Shown here piece by piece: positions 1,799 to 25,151 of a stretch of 64,000 nt of DNA. The stretch is from Urbifossiella limnaea. Lineage in GTDB: Bacteria; Planctomycetota; Planctomycetia; Gemmatales; Gemmataceae. The first letter of the stretch is position 1, and each line of letters opens with the position of its first letter. The position numbers were made by a program, and so were the translations under genes. Location of the stretch: positions 5,006,322 through 5,070,321 of the forward strand of contig NZ_CP036273.1 of assembly GCF_007747215.1 (NCBI RefSeq). Direction: 5' to 3'. The notes under the pieces are model-generated. The model saw only the letters and a list, made by a program, of their open reading frames with translations, made no database searches and was not told where the DNA came from.

Positions 1799-4381
<2,583 letters not shown>

Positions 4382-4844: not shown

Positions 4845-7800
4845 ATGCGCCGCACGACATCAACCAAGAAGCGTCTCGCAGCCATCGAGCCAGTCATACT
4901 TCGTCTGGAGGGGTTGGAAGCGCGTGATGTTCCAGCATCTTTCGTAAGCTTCACGGGTGCGACATACACCCAGAATTTCAACGCCTTGGGCACTACCACG
5001 ATCACGAACCTCAACGGGGCAGAAGTTCAGTACCTGGACGAGGCGCCTGTGTCGGTGGCGAGTCTGAACGGCTGGGCGATTGACCGCACCGATGCAAATA
5101 CAACAAATTTCCCGCTGACCGCCGGTACGGGTTCGAGTAACGCCGGTGGGGCGTACAACTTCGCGACCGCTGCGGTTCCGACAGATCGAGCCTTCGGAAC
5201 CCTCCTAAGCGGGAGCTTCACCTCCACCATCGGCGTCGTGCTGCGAAATGACTCAGCCAACCCGATCACGACGTTGACAGTGTCGTTCAACAGCGAGCAG
5301 TACCGGCGGGGAGGGGGCTCGTCGTTTGAAGACCATCTCGACTTCGCGTTTCAACTCGGCGCCATCGATATTACTTCGGGCGGGACATGGATACCAATCA
5401 ACGATCTCGACGCCACCTCCGCGATCATCTCTTCGACCGCGGTAAGCAGCATCGACGGAAACGCAGCGGGTCGTCTGGCGAAGTCATTCACGCTCGAGTT
5501 TTCGTCGGGCGCCTGGGCCGTGGGCCAGCTGCTCGTATTCCGCTGGGTTGACCTGAACGTCACAAGTAGTGACGACGGCCTCGCACTCGACGATGTCGTG
5601 TTCTCCACCGGTTCAGGTAGCGCGGCGCCTTCAGTCACCACCCAGCCGACGAACCAGTCGGTCACCGCGGGCGGAGTTGCCTCGTTCACCGCGGCCGCGA
5701 GCGGTTCGCCGACGCCGGGCGTGATCTGGCAGGTTAAGGTGCCTGGTGGCAGTTTCACGGACCTGATCAACGGGGGCGTCTACAGCGGCGTGGACACGAA
5801 CACGCTGACCGTCACCGGTTCCAACGTGTCGCTCAGCGGCAACCTGTACCGGGCCGTCTACACGAACGGTAGTGGCAGCGCGACGACCGACGAGGTGAGC
5901 CTTACCGTCAACTCGGCCACGATCATGGTCTCGCCGGCGACGTTGCCGGACCCGGTCCTCTCGACGGCGTACTCCCAGTCCGTGACCGCTTCCGGCGGGA
6001 GTAACACGTTCGCGTTCAACGTCAGCGCGGGTGCCCTCCCCGACGGGCTAACCTTGTCCGGCGCCGGCGCCCTGACCGGCACGCCGACCCTGTCGGGCAC
6101 GTACACATTCACGGTGCAGGCCACCGACGCCTTTGGCAGCACCGGAACCCGCCCCTACACCCTCGTCGTGCCGCTCGTCCTGAGCCCGGCGAGCCTGCCC
6201 GACGGCACCCTCGGAGTCGTCTACAGCCAAGCCGTCACCGTCGCCGGCGGCGTCGCTCCGTACCTGTTCTCCGTCTCGGCCGGCGCCCTCCCCGACGGGC
6301 TGACACTCGACACGAATAGCGGCACCATCACCGGCACGCCGAGCGTGGCGAACACGTTCAACTTCACCATCACGGCGACGAACGGCGCCGGCCGGTCGGG
6401 TAGCCGGTCGTACAGCGTGGTCGTCGCGCCGTCGGCGAGTGTGTCGTCGATCGTCCGCACGGCCGGGCCGGACACCAACGCCGCCGCGGTCAGTTGGACG
6501 GTGACGTTCAACCAGGCCGTGTCCGGGTTGGCCGACACGAACTTCACGCTGACGGACCTGTCGAACAGCCTCACCGGCGAGGGGATCACCTCGGTCGTCC
6601 CGGTCGGCGGGGCACCCGCGACGCAGTGGACGGTGACCGCCTCGACCGGCACCGGCGACGGCACGCTCCGTCTGAACGCGACCGACGCTGCCGGCGTGAC
6701 ACCGACGCTCATCAACCTGCCGACCAACGTCACCACGGCCGACTACGCCGTCGATAAGACCGCTCCGACGGTCGTGATCGGCGCGCCGTCCGTGTCGCTG
6801 ACCGCGGGCGGTCCCGTGTCTTTCACCGTGACGTACACGGGGGCAGACAACATCACGTTGGCTCCTGGCGACGTGACGCTGAGCCCGACCGGCGGGGTGT
6901 CGGCGACGGTCGGCGTGTCCGGCTCGGGCAACACGCGAACGGTGACACTCACGGGCATCACCGGAAACGGCTCCATCGGTATCAGCCTTGTGGCGGGCAC
7001 GGCTTCCGACAACGCCACCAACAGTGCCGCGGCCGCCGGGCCGAGCGCGACCGTTCAGGTCGACAACACGCCGCCGACGGTGGTGAGCGTGGACCGCTTC
7101 GGCGCCGCCAGCGTGACCAACGCGGGCACGGTGCAGTACACGGTGACGTTCAGCGAGGCGGTGAGTCTCGGCGCGACGCCGTTCACGACTACGACGACCG
7201 GCACGCTGTCCGGCGTGTCCGTGGAGAGCGTGGCCGGCGGCCCGACGGTGTACACGGTGACGGTGAACACCGGCTCAGGCGACGGCACAGTACGCCTGGA
7301 CGTGCCGGCGGGGTCCACCGTACGTGACCCGGCCGGGAACGCCGTGGCGCCGTTCGCCGTCGGCGAGGTGTTCACGATCGACCGGACGGCCCCGGCCGTC
7401 ACGATCGGAGCGCCCTCCGCGACGCTCACGGCCGGCGGCCCGGTGTCGTTCCTGGTCACGTACACCGACACGAATCTCATCCCGTTTACGCTGCTGGCGG
7501 CACAGGTTCAGCTGAACCGGACCGGCAGCGCGAACGCGACCGTGAGCGTGAGCGGCAGTGGCAACACGCGGGCGGTGACGCTGACGGGAATTACGGGCGA
7601 CGGCACGCTCAGCATCAGCCTGCCGCCGGGCACGGCAGCGGACGCGGCCGGCAATCAGGCGACGGCGGCCGGCCCGAGTACGGCCGTGACCGTCGACAAC
7701 ACGGCCCCGACGGTCATGGCCGTGACCCGGGTGGGGAGCGCGCTCACGAACGCGGCGACGGTACGGTATTCGGTCACTTTCAGCGAAGCCGTCTCGGGGG

Positions 7801-16181: not shown

Positions 16182-17158
16182 CGCGCCGCTTCGCGTGGGC
16201 CCGCCGGCACCCGTGGCGGACCACGGCGGTGGTTCTGCTCACGGGGGTGGTGCTCGTGAACGTGGTGGCGTACCGGCACGCGCGGGCGATGCTGGCGTTC
16301 GCCACCGACGGCGCCAAGACGGCGCCGCCCGAGGGGCTAACAGCGTGGGGCAAGGCGAAGGCACTGGCGCTCGGCGTCACCGTGCCGCGGCCGGCGCTTG
16401 GGCGAACGCCGAGTGACAGCGGGCTGTCAGCGGAGACGGTGCGGTTCGCCGCCGGCGGCGTGAACTTGGAGGCGTGGCTCGTCGCGCCGCCGGGGGCGAA
16501 GGGGACGGTGATCCTGTTCCACGGCTACGCGGCGTGTCGGTCGGCGCTGCTGCCAGAGGCAGCGGCCGTGGTGGAACTCGGGTACGCGGCGCTCGTGGTG
16601 GACTTCCGCGGCGCCGGCGGGTCAGACGGCTCGGACTGCACCCTCGGCCACGACGAAGCGCGGGACGTGGCCGCGGCGCTACGGTTCGCGCGTGAGCGGA
16701 AGCTGCCGGGGCCGGTGGTGCTGTTCGGGCAGTCGATGGGCGGCGCGGCGGTGCTGCGGGCCGTCGGCGCGCTCGGGGCCGACCCGGACGGCATCGTCGT
16801 GGAGGCGGTGTTCGCGCGGACGCTGACGACGGTGCGGAACCGCTTCGCGCTGATGGGCCTGCCGTCGTTCCCGGGGGCGGAGATGCTGGTGTTCTGGGGC
16901 AGCGTCCGCGGCGGGTTCGACGCCTTCGCCCACGACCCGGCCGAGTACGCCCGCGGCTGCCGCGTGCCGGCGCTGGTGCTGCACGGCGGCGCCGACCGAA
17001 ACGCGACGCCGGCCGAGGGGCGGGCGATCTTCGAGGCCCTGCCCGACCGCAAGGAACTGGTGGTGTTCGACGGCGTCGGCCACACATCGCTGTGCGCCGC
17101 GGACCGGCCGCGGTGGGCGGCCGCGGTGGGGCGGTTGGTGGGGTCGGTGAGCAAGTGA
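16178..17158 (+). CDS. Membrane-anchored alpha/beta hydrolase
   Basis: 326 residues. A hydrophobic segment at about 17-32 (TAVVLLTGVVLVNVVA) follows a basic N-terminus and probably anchors the protein with the catalytic domain outside. The hydrolase core has the oxyanion region FHGYAA, the nucleophile elbow GQSMGG (Ser about 186), an acid in HGGADRNATP and the catalytic His in GVGHTSL. This is a complete Ser-Asp-His triad of the serine aminopeptidase S33/BAAT-like type. Substrate unknown. It is translationally coupled to the UPF0178 gene, and its stop lies inside the left arm of the 34-base palindrome that follows. Confidence 0.85.
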   Translation: MTRRFAWARRHPWRTTAVVLLTGVVLVNVVAYRHARAMLAFATDGAKTAPPEGLTAWGKAKALALGVTVPRPALGRTPSDSGLSAETVRFAAGGVNLEAWLVAPPGAKGTVILFHGYAACRSALLPEAAAVVELGYAALVVDFRGAGGSDGSDCTLGHDEARDVAAALRFARERKLPGPVVLFGQSMGGAAVLRAVGALGADPDGIVVEAVFARTLTTVRNRFALMGLPSFPGAEMLVFWGSVRGGFDAFAHDPAEYARGCRVPALVLHGGADRNATPAEGRAIFEALPDRKELVVFDGVGHTSLCAADRPRWAAAVGRLVGSVSK

Positions 17159-17237
17159 GCGGGGTCGCGTCAGCGCCCCGTGCGAACCCGCGCCTTCAAG
17201 CAACGGGTTCGCACGGGGCGCTGACGCGACCCCGCTC
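17157..17237. repeat. Perfect 34-base inverted repeat between convergent genes
   Basis: Arms 17157-17190 and 17204-17237 are exact reverse complements with a 13-base spacer. The left arm starts on the last bases of the hydrolase stop codon. It sits between convergent genes and would form a very stable RNA hairpin on either strand, so a bidirectional terminator is likely. It belongs to the group of long palindromes seen at 21984, 23371, 23872 and 25080. Confidence 0.9.
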
Positions 17238-19435: not shown

Positions 19436-20010
19436 CTACTCCTTACCGAGTACCAGATCGACCACCCAACAGCCGCGGACGTGCGGCCCCGGGCCGCGGC
19501 AGTGGCCGAGCACGTCGGCGTCGGCGCAACCTGCGTCCTCCAGCGCGTCGGCCAGCACCGGTATCGGGCCGAAGTCGCGCGACTCGTACATGCCGCGTGC
19601 GAGGCCGACGACCGCCTCGGTGCGCCACGACGGGTCGAACGGGACGGGTCGGAACGGGTTCCCGAAGATATCACGGACCAGGTCACGCGTCGCCTCACGC
19701 TCTTCGCGAAGCGGGTATGCGTTGCCGACGAATCCGAGGATGTAACGAGCGGCTGGGGCGGGGTACGTGAGGAATCTGACGTAGTCCTCTCGAACCGACC
19801 AGACCGCCTCGAGTTCCTCTGCCGTCGCTCCACCGTCCGCGAAACGCTCGACCAGATCGATGATGGCGTAGCGGCCGGGGGCCGAAACACCCCGGAGCGC
19901 CCACCGCACCCGCGCCGCCCCGAGCAGCCGCGCCTTCCGCTCGCTCGCGCGATCCTGCATGTGATTGAGCAACGGCAACGGGCTGCGTACTCGTTCCCAG
20001 TGTTCTGATC

Positions 20011-20014
<4 letters not shown>
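19436..20014 (-). CDS. Gemmata-type conserved hypothetical protein
   Basis: 192 residues from a GTG start whose last two bases are the first two of the dehydratase stop (GTGA overlap), so it is translationally coupled to the gene upstream. I recognise the C-terminal half: [26 protein letters not shown], then [25 protein letters not shown] and VVDLVLGKE. This block ends a large family of proteins in Gemmata-like planctomycetes whose function is unknown; in many members it follows SMI1-like or repeat-rich regions. The N-terminal part ([15 protein letters not shown]) resembles the basic helical front half of those proteins. A much longer open frame upstream is antisense to nothing useful but overlaps the dehydratase gene, so it was rejected. 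Confidence 0.78.
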
Positions 20015-21963
<1,949 letters not shown>

Positions 21964-21983
21964 GGCAGAAATCCGAAAGCAGG

Positions 21984-22093
21984 ATGGCCACAAAAAGGCA
22001 CGAAAAGACACAAAAAGTGAACCAAGACAATACACGGTTCGATTCTTGGCTCGGTCCAACTTTTTGTGTCTTTTCGTGCCTTTTTGTGGCCAT
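21984..22093. repeat. Perfect 35-base AT-rich inverted repeat in a divergent promoter region
   Basis: Arms 21984-22018 and 22059-22093 are exact reverse complements with a 40-base spacer that itself carries CCAAGA and TCTTGG. The arms are made of runs such as CACAAAAAGG and GAAAAGACAC and are far more AT-rich than anything around them. It lies between the divergent dehydratase and epimerase genes, so it is not a simple end-of-operon terminator. It could be a transcribed structured element, a small non-autonomous mobile element, or a regulatory site. Confidence 0.9.
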
Positions 22094-22205
22094 TGTTCTG
22101 GTTGGGTTCTGTGCCTAGTATCGTGATTCGGCCCCGCGGGCGGTAGCTTTCCCGGCGGGGCGCGGGCGCATATCGTGTCGTCACCTGCTCCCCCGGAGGC
22201 TCCCC

Positions 22206-23363
22206 ATGCGCTTCGCTCTCCCCTTCGCGGCTGTCGCCGCTGTGGTCGCCATGATGCCGCAACCGCTCCCCGCCCAGCCGAAGGGCGCCAAGGCCGGTCC
22301 GGCCTTCGACCAGGCGCCGTTCGGCAAGATGCCCGACGGCACGGCCGTCACCGGGTTCACGCTCGTCAACCGCAACGGCGTCACCGTGCAGGCCATCGAG
22401 TACGGCGCCATCGTCACGTCGATCCGCGTCCCGGACAAGGACGGCAAGCTGGCCGACGTGGCGCTCGGGTTCGACAAGCTGGAGGACTACCTGAAGGGCC
22501 ACCCGTACTTCGGGTCGAACGCCGGCCGCAGCGCCAACCGCATCGCCAAGGGGAAGTTCAGCATCGACGGCAAGGAGTACACGCTGGCGACGAACAACGG
22601 CCCCAACCACCTGCACGGCGGCAAGGCCGGGTTCGACAAGAAGCTGTGGCGCGGCGAGCCGTTCCTCGGCGCGACCGGCCCCGGGGTGAAGTTCACCTAC
22701 CGCAGCCCGGACAAGGAAGAAGGCTACCCCGGAAACCTCTCCGTCACCATGAGCTACACGCTGACGGACAACAACGAGCTGGTGGTGGACTACCGGGCGA
22801 CGACGGACCAGCCGACGCTCTGCAACCTGGCGCACCACAGCTACTTCAACCTGGCCGGGCACGACAGCGGCGACATCCTCGGCCATCAGTTCCAGGCGAT
22901 GGCGAAGAACTACACCCCCGCCGACGACACGCTCATCCCCACGGGCAAGATCGCGCCCGTCGCGGGGACGCCGTTCGACTTCACGGCGCCGAAGGCCATC
23001 GGCAAGGACTTGAAGGCCGCCGGCGGCGACCCGGTCGGCTACGACCTGAACTTCGTCCTCGACAAGGGGGCGAGCGATCGGCCGGAGCTGGCGGCGCGGG
23101 TGACGGAGCCGAAGACGGGGCGGACGCTGGAGGTGTACTCGACGGAGCCCGGCTTGCAGTTCTACACGGGCAACTTCCTCGACGGCACGAACGTCGGCCG
23201 CGGCGGGGCGGTGTACCGGCAGTACGGGGCGTTCTGCCTGGAGCCGCAGAAATTCCCCGACTCGGTGAACAAGCCGGAGTGGAAGGACAAGAGTAACCCG
23301 GTGCTGCGGCCCGGCGAGACGTACCGGCAGACGACGGTCTACAAGTTCGGGGTGGCGCGGTGA
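22206..23363 (+). CDS. galM: Secreted aldose 1-epimerase (galactose mutarotase)
   Basis: 385 residues. The ATG at 22206 has a strong GGAGG and opens a Sec signal peptide ([20 protein letters not shown]) probably cleaved after AQ/A-type residues near 25. The mature part is a GalM-type beta-sandwich: [45 protein letters not shown], the catalytic HHSYFNLAG and [12 protein letters not shown] with the catalytic Glu. GalM interconverts alpha and beta anomers of aldoses. Export places it in the periplasm or outside, as in other planctomycetes that degrade polysaccharides. It diverges from the YjhG-type dehydratase gene, suggesting a shared sugar theme. Confidence 0.95.
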
Positions 23364-23850: not shown

Positions 23851-23871
23851 GGTCGTGCGGCTTGTGTTTCG

Positions 23872-23953
23872 GGCGAACGGCCGGCGTCAGCCGGCTGGTG
23901 GGGGTGGCAAGCGCCTGTACCAGCGACCAGCCGGCTGACGCCGGCCGTTCGCC
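23872..23953. repeat. Perfect 28-base inverted repeat between tandem genes
   Basis: Arms 23872-23899 and 23926-23953 are exact reverse complements with a 26-base spacer. The arm core, GGCCGGCGTCAGCCGGC, is itself rich in short palindromes. It separates two genes on the minus strand (the Dabb gene upstream and the hypothetical gene downstream), so here it would act between co-directional genes as terminator, attenuator or RNA stabiliser. Confidence 0.9.
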
Positions 23954-23961
23954 GGGGGATC

Positions 23962-25079: not shown

Positions 25080-25151
25080 CCGAGCCGGCCCCGTCAGGGG
25101 TCGGAGCTTTCGCGGCGCCGCAGCCTCCGACCCCTGACGGGGCCGGCTCGG
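25080..25151. repeat. Perfect 27-base inverted repeat between tandem genes
   Basis: Arms 25080-25106 and 25125-25151 are exact reverse complements with an 18-base spacer. It starts nine bases after the lipoate ligase-like gene and ends 37 bases before the MoxR gene, both on the plus strand. Probable terminator or processing hairpin of the same class as those at 17157, 23371 and 23872. Confidence 0.9.

Follow-up and report, generated by a model that had tools for sequence, protein, structure and literature searches.

A dispersed hairpin family in Urbifossiella limnaea and its likely kinship with hairpin elements that carry GxxExxY genes

Described hairpin elements and the palindrome in the window

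REPINs are hairpins scattered outside genes, each formed by a short sequence and a second, inverted copy of it; their partner RAYT gene is flanked by that sequence too, changes on the two sides of the hairpin compensate one another, and service by the enzyme in trans has been proposed (PMC3116915, in the part of the article available). Most REPs are defined by GTAG or CGTC tags (PMC3733652, likewise available in part). MITEs are non-coding elements of many copies, with terminal inverted repeats and a coding relative that has the same ends. One of them, the short hupL MITE of Thiomargarita, has been ascribed to a PD-(D/E)XK_2 element (PF12784), which the accessible part of PMC4853749 proposes as its parent. 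Intervening sequences (IVSs) of the 23S rRNA are hairpins of selfish elements with a small S23p/IVP ORF in the loop; that of Coxiella, a selfish element of 428 nt, has a stem of 28 bp and an S23p ORF and is cleaved by RNase III in vitro (PMC4990558, as far as the available text goes). The Rpn/YhgA-like nucleases (PF04754), also of the PD-(D/E)XK type, promote RecA-independent recombination, and their cleavage products can prime synthesis, with template switching proposed (PMC5350276, whose available portion leaves hairpin arms unmentioned). Geobacter genome papers, in the excerpts available, describe palindromic “multicopy nucleotide sequences”, some of which may be the elements described here.

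The palindrome under study lies in a 64-kb stretch of the U. limnaea genome, hereafter the window. Like REPINs, it is a dispersed extragenic inverted doublet that folds into a hairpin and, like MITEs, it is non-coding, has terminal inverted repeats and many copies, and has a coding relative with the same ends. Unlike those of REPINs, its arms are built of triple ∼10-nt units, and unlike REPs, no GTAG or CGTC tag was noticed in the arms (by reading, none occurs in the 35-nt window arm). The candidate partner differs as well, being a PD-(D/E)XK nuclease (PF13366) named GxxExxY, whereas RAYT is a Y1/HUH enzyme and the coding relatives of MITEs are known transposases. The hupL MITE appears to be the nearest precedent for a non-coding element with a proposed PD-(D/E)XK parent, although its family there is PF12784 rather than PF13366 and, in the part of the source available, it has a 10-bp direct repeat and a 19-bp inverted repeat, whereas the element here has long tandem-unit arms and no direct repeat was detected. 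From the 23S rRNA IVSs the element differs in protein family, in arm units, in its intergenic position and in its many non-coding copies. No report pairing such arms with GxxExxY was found in the open-access literature searched (most subscription journals lay outside it), and the name GxxExxY was met there, in the portions of text available, as annotation only, with no role attached.

The main features of the locus are collected in Table 1. The original prediction of a 35-nt perfect inverted repeat between two divergent genes, with a further CCAAGA/TCTTGG pair in its spacer, agrees with the sequence in each of these respects: the arms are 100% complementary, and the inner pair is formed in the minimum-energy folds of both RNA and DNA. 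After ATGGC, the window arm consists of CACAAAAAGG, CACGAAAAGA and CACAAAAAGT. Similarity to other copies dies away ∼13 nt beyond the ends of the perfect palindrome. An automatic ORF call that stretched the dehydratase through the hairpin (682 aa, starting at TTG 22059 and adding 21964-22059) was rejected, since the family model fits a start at 21963. The RNA fold of 21975-22102 has an energy of −68.6 kcal/mol (z = −10.9) and the single-strand DNA fold a z of −12.0, neither equaled by any of 200 shuffles. All four Rfam matches at E ≤ 10 in 21900-22250 were far under the gathering score, and a scan of 21900-22260 found no promoter- or terminator-like match.

Table 1. Coordinates of the hairpin and of the flanking genes in the window
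Feature	Coordinates	Strand	Description
Whole non-coding hairpin element	21984..22093	no strand	Extent of the perfect palindrome
Left arm, 35 nt	21984..22018	+	ATGGC, then three 10-nt units with CAC at 21989, 21999 and 22009
Right arm, 35 nt	22059..22093	-	Exact reverse complement of the left arm; GTG at 22066, 22076 and 22086
Loop, 40 nt	22019..22058	no strand	Site of the GxxExxY gene in the coding form (L041), elsewhere in the same genome
Inner CCAAGA	22022..22027	+	Pairs with TCTTGG at 22044-22049
Inner TCTTGG	22044..22049	+	Partner of CCAAGA
YjhG/YagF-family D-xylonate dehydratase-type gene, outside the element	20011..21963	-	TIGR03432, 1157.6 bits
Aldose/galactose 1-epimerase gene, outside the element	22206..23363	+	PF01263

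The window contains four perfect inverted repeats (arms of at least 16 nt, within 200 nt of each other), of which this palindrome is the longest. The others lie at 17157-17237 (34-nt arms) and 25080-25151 (27-nt arms), both with approximate ends, and within a second palindromic dispersed repeat at 23864-23957, where a 28-nt perfect inverted repeat starts at 23872; this repeat has many 80- to 95-bp matches of ∼80 to 90% identity on both strands of a same-genus genome (G001). A separate stretch of the window, 19500-19682, has matches of ∼70 to 86% identity at many places in all five same-genus genomes and appears, from these matches, to be part of a multicopy gene or repeat family.

A dispersed family and its coding form

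Searched against its own 7.8-Mb genome, the palindrome with its flanks gave 89 BLAST rows on both strands, and its arm gave 46 matches with at most 3 mismatches, compared to none for a reversed control pattern. The fetched loci of this genome hold 34 complete hairpins, the window copy included (at most 7 edits per arm), with loops mostly of 44 to 50 nt and one of 457 nt. There are two main arm variants, GGCCACAAAAAGGCACGAAAAGACAC and GGCCGCAAAAAGGCACAAAAGACAC, and both arms of one copy are usually of the same variant. The original prediction that sequences of this kind can be the ends of small mobile elements is thus upheld as to mobility but not as to ends, for the palindrome is itself a whole small element. 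Pairs of hairpins ∼1.4 kb apart (L013, L022 and L026) were considered as ends of a larger transposon and rejected; complete hairpins make up the majority of these ends, and the long ORFs that they enclose resemble, by reading, ordinary unrelated genes. The idea of a Y1 transposase as partner was likewise rejected: of three PF01797 genes present, the best lies 2.1 kb from a hairpin and adjoins other, GC-rich palindromes. These AGGCCGAAGGCCTG-like repeats (L030, ∼3000-3300; C1:119000-119300) are possibly REPs of that Y1_Tnp gene (C1:118501-118836).

At one locus of the same genome (L041, C1:6314232-6314742), the arms stand 457 nt apart with an intact 132-aa gene between them. The encoded protein matches PF13366 (90.1 bits; cut-off 22) and the GxxExxY model TIGR04256 (100.9 bits; cut-off 35) and neither a known transposase, PF01797 nor PF05635. 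A second arm type, ACAGGAT, has 25 matches in this genome (control: none); these pair into 11 non-coding hairpins and one coding element, built around the GxxExxY gene at L204, with one arm left unpaired. For two arm types, one genome therefore holds both a coding form and non-coding forms that share its arms, and a third GxxExxY gene of this genome (L283) has arms of the CGCAAAG type. G001 contributes 14 hairpins to the set and one PF13366 gene with ACAGGAT-like arms; in this genome, which is 84% complete, no GxxExxY gene with the arm type of the window hairpin was found. That the palindrome belongs with the GxxExxY hairpin element, as a non-coding relative, is very likely.

The association of arms and gene extends well beyond U. 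limnaea. The PF13366 family is present in 32 of 59 relatives and in 22 of 25 genomes of other groups, the latter picked for holding the arm motif. Together these gave 148 PF13366 rows (66 from relatives, 82 from the other genomes), of which 121 were used (27 were left out, mainly as fragments, frame-broken or weak) and one was dropped as an identical protein, leaving 120. Inverted arms (local score of at least 33, within 350 nt) accompany 87 of these 120 distinct GxxExxY proteins; the genes of the other 33 have no arms at this threshold. Windows shifted by 600 nt gave 4/225, and ParE toxin genes, found in 27 of 28 of these genomes, gave 0/30. Among first-fetched loci, arms were found at 23/31 in relatives (shifted control, 3/116) and at 23/30 in other genomes (shifted control, 1/112). 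A control that combines the left flank of one gene and the right flank of a different gene has less force, given that similar units recur in unrelated elements; the 95th percentile of this control was 33 in relatives, equal to the threshold, and 29 in other genomes. Three C(A/G)C-type units spaced 7 to 12 nt apart occur in 64 of the 87 armed genes versus 70 of 1,740 random stretch pairs, and the unit words vary among elements (CACAGAG, CACGGAT, CGCAAAG, CACGAAA, ACAGGAT, CACAAAAAG and others).

A scan of a genome collection with the arm DNA alone returned 56 matches in 51 stretches from ∼27 genomes, five of the stretches looking, by sequence and equal length, like contigs of G001. GCC(A/G), which is not part of the pattern, precedes 53 of the 56 matches. 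At four of the 51 loci (Verrucomicrobia, Lentisphaerales, Scalindua and an uncultured bacterium), a GxxExxY gene lies 29 to 57 nt away, and at a fifth, in Geobacter, it lies at 278 nt. A second arm within 600 nt was missing for 19/56 matches, while 25/204 random windows of the same loci hold one. One match in Bacteroidales (L125) was rejected as a simple tandem repeat rather than a hairpin. One viral contig (L339) contains the arm pattern. No confirmed relative of the GxxExxY protein of L154 or of alignment A2 was found in viral contigs, and relatives of the L154 protein are encoded by none of the phage records and by 6 of 72,556 plasmid records.

Nuclease clades, arm words and the history of sites

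In an alignment of 15 GxxExxY sequences, the letters G..E..Y, D, E-x-K and Q...Y show little or no variation, a pattern that fits a PD-(D/E)XK nuclease; the Q...Y (QxxxY) we take to be a RecB-type mark. Of the 120 proteins, 109 retain the full set E-D-(E/D)xK-Q, as do 80 of the 87 with arms. Pairs with a finite dS gave dN/dS values of 0.06 to 0.44 (many other pairs were saturated). The gene is under purifying selection, and the conserved letters suggest that the enzyme is active. An AlphaFold model built from five sequences was poor (pLDDT 50.7), and a sequence search of solved structures gave no match.

Across hosts, the sequence of the arms follows the clade of the nuclease. Among the 85 armed genes compared between genomes, arm similarity was correlated with protein similarity (r = 0.35, equaled in 0/2000 permutations; Spearman 0.16), and for pairs between the two host sets r was 0.26, with 0.14 as the highest permuted value. 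A tree was built from 85 of the 87 armed proteins (at least 85 aa matched; 116 columns); its forks are only partly resolved, with 34 of 82 inner branches starred. Six arm labels placed on this tree required 25 changes versus 49.7 for shuffled labels, the CRCNAAR label clustering weakly (15 changes versus 17.2). Ten of the 11 rows with CACAAAAAG arms fall in one clade with a support of 100/100; the eleventh (L192) has mixed CACGAAA/CACAAAAAG units. The clade spans Geobacter, Acidobacteria, Verrucomicrobia and the family of U. limnaea; its hosts are U. limnaea itself, two others of its family, Geobacter, Pyrinomonadaceae (two), Akkermansiaceae, Verrucomicrobia, Lentisphaerales and an uncultured bacterium.

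Within copies, the two arms are more alike than chance would have them. In a set of 62 hairpins from three genomes, the mean difference between the two arms of a copy is 2.45 edits, compared to 3.84 for shuffled partners (0/5000 shuffles as low). In 11 orthologous hairpin pairs with 320 comparable columns, 15 changes were mirrored in both arms, 27 affected one arm and 2 differed in both; with independent arms, ∼1 mirrored change would be expected. This count sets aside 14 columns in which the arms of the U. limnaea copy differ between themselves, and it is a guide rather than an exact probability, because it assumes that columns (gaps included) are independent of one another and because the window copy enters two of the pairs. 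At the window locus, for example, both G001 arms read GGCCGC where U. limnaea has GGCCAC. Arms are thus kept symmetric at orthologous sites; selection for structure, replacement by another copy and template-switch correction would all give this result.

The original prediction had taken many dispersed copies as a sign of a mobile element and single conserved copies as a sign of regulation. The answer is mixed, in that copies are dispersed while G001 and G002, two of the five same-genus genomes, have the window copy at the corresponding position. Searched against 59 genomes, the window copy matched in five: its own, these two strongly and two same-family genomes weakly; the three other same-genus genomes gave no match. 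At the site itself, G001 has the hairpin, G002 has it with a longer loop containing another palindrome, G003 has an unrelated palindrome in its place and G004 has a short gap without a palindrome, while the G005 contig stops short of the gap. Among the hairpins of relatives, 7 of 14 in G001 and 4 of 14 in G002 share a site with any of the 34 U. limnaea hairpins; with half of the G001 hairpins at such sites, many copies must be old. Other sites differ between genomes of the genus. At L017 ∼2006-2104, G001 has a hairpin of ACAGGAT units in the same gene gap. At L017 ∼6419-6517, G001 has no hairpin although both flanks align, none was seen in the stretches of G002 to G004 examined beyond the upstream gene that they share, and in G005 the hairpin consists of another, AAGTC-type unit. 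The gaps of relatives are too diverged to be aligned for exact empty sites or target duplication, and no transposition event was seen. What these sites record is the gain and loss of small insertions, alongside many old copies, rather than a single conserved regulatory site.

By reading, the loops of six G002 hairpins (L174, L177, L180, L182, L183 and L184) contain other palindromic repeats, often CGTTCCCACGCTCTGCGTGGGAACG-like, as does that of one G001 hairpin (L166); the G002 cases indicate that loops can take in foreign DNA.

What may move the hairpins, and what it would mean

Read as a whole, the window palindrome would be a mobile hairpin element of REPIN- or MITE-like kind in its non-coding form, with GxxExxY carried by the coding form and with movement by the mechanism proposed here, and we hold this full statement to be moderately probable; that the GxxExxY nuclease is what moves the hairpins is, taken by itself, favored by a narrow measure. 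Beyond the statement that arms and enzyme belong together, the steps are offered as a proposal. The GxxExxY protein would recognize and bind the phased units as duplex, cruciform or single-strand hairpin and would cut at the element in its hairpin or cruciform form, and the free 3′ end could then prime copying into a gap at the end of a gene. New copies would be tolerated mainly in gaps between genes. The non-coding hairpins would rely on GxxExxY supplied in trans, in the way that RAYTs are believed to act for REPINs, and fold-back copying might keep the two arms alike.

A different account leaves the hairpins mobile and makes GxxExxY their passenger or guard, the mover being another enzyme (e.g., a Y1/HUH transposase) or host replication or repair at hairpins. 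This we regard as unlikely. One reason to entertain it comes from PF05635, the 23S rRNA intervening-sequence protein, a four-helix bundle. PF05635 genes occur in 28 of 28 genomes, and 19 of 30 loci from these genomes (L249-L278), which lie outside rRNA, have inverted tandem-unit arms (shifted control, 3/102), made of ∼7-nt units such as AGTCGGT, AGTGTGA and GGGTGAA, unlike those of GxxExxY. As this protein is unrelated and yet has arms, the presence of arms does not by itself make the enclosed protein the mover; the PF05635 arms widen the class, yet they show that such arms can accompany an unrelated protein. The foreign palindromes in several G002 loops would also suit this account, as would the one Y1_Tnp gene 2.1 kb from a hairpin. 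Against this, arm sequence tracks the GxxExxY clade across hosts, each of two arm types has coding and non-coding forms in one genome, and the Y1_Tnp gene adjoins palindromes of another kind and does not lie between these arms.

Alternatively, the host could retain the hairpins because they serve it at the RNA or DNA level, as insulators or RNase III cleavage sites between tandem genes, as bidirectional terminators or as bent-DNA sites; this we consider improbable. Their placement invites the idea, since they fit tightly between genes, the distance to each flanking gene being mostly 8 to 37 nt. Of 32 copies, 26 lie between tandem, 4 between convergent and 2 between divergent genes, compared to 49, 11 and 25, respectively, of 85 gaps of at least 60 nt; divergent gaps are under-represented (2/32 versus 25/85, P = 0.007), and the divergent setting of the window copy is an exception within the family. 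These contexts come from our own simple coding model rather than from annotation, and the set comprises 33 hairpins, the coding copy excluded, of which one overlaps a called gene. Such a function would accord as well with the maintained symmetry of the arms, with the strong RNA fold and with the cutting of a known rRNA intervening sequence by RNase III (PMC4990558, in the part available). However, selection against harmful insertions would also leave hairpins in gene gaps, hairpin sites vary between genomes of one genus, the same gap may carry a hairpin of a different type, and the window copy is unmatched in three same-genus genomes and has no terminator-like match. The arm type, moreover, moves between phyla together with the nuclease clade. 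A local operator or attenuator of the dehydratase and epimerase genes, the regulator site that the original prediction had allowed for, can hardly be credited: the hairpin does lie between these two divergent genes in U. limnaea, G001 and G002, with 20 nt from the dehydratase start codon to the left arm, but the reading is unsupported because the same sequence stands at dozens of other, unrelated places in the genome, 21900-22260 has no promoter- or terminator-like match and same-genus G004 keeps the gene pair and a short gap without the hairpin.

Returning to GxxExxY as the candidate mover, the elements may belong to a wide and so far unrecognized class, a suggestion that we doubt slightly more than we believe. 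In such a class, a minimal PD-(D/E)XK (RecB-like) protein, GxxExxY, would replace the transposase, read phased triple units in a hairpin, spread both itself and non-coding hairpins, and cross phyla with its own arm “word”; elements with the four-helix-bundle protein PF05635, rRNA intervening sequences included, with their ∼7-nt units, would form a sister class. If GxxExxY does move hairpins, a PD-(D/E)XK nuclease would join the HUH enzymes as spreaders of DNA hairpins, and a curated family would gain a testable role, with the swapping of arms as a built-in test of specificity. The same reading would account for a type of intergenic palindrome met repeatedly in different phyla and would bear on the old question of what the small proteins in rRNA intervening sequences do, and the mirror-symmetric arms of triple units would offer a natural case for the correction of palindromes by template switching.
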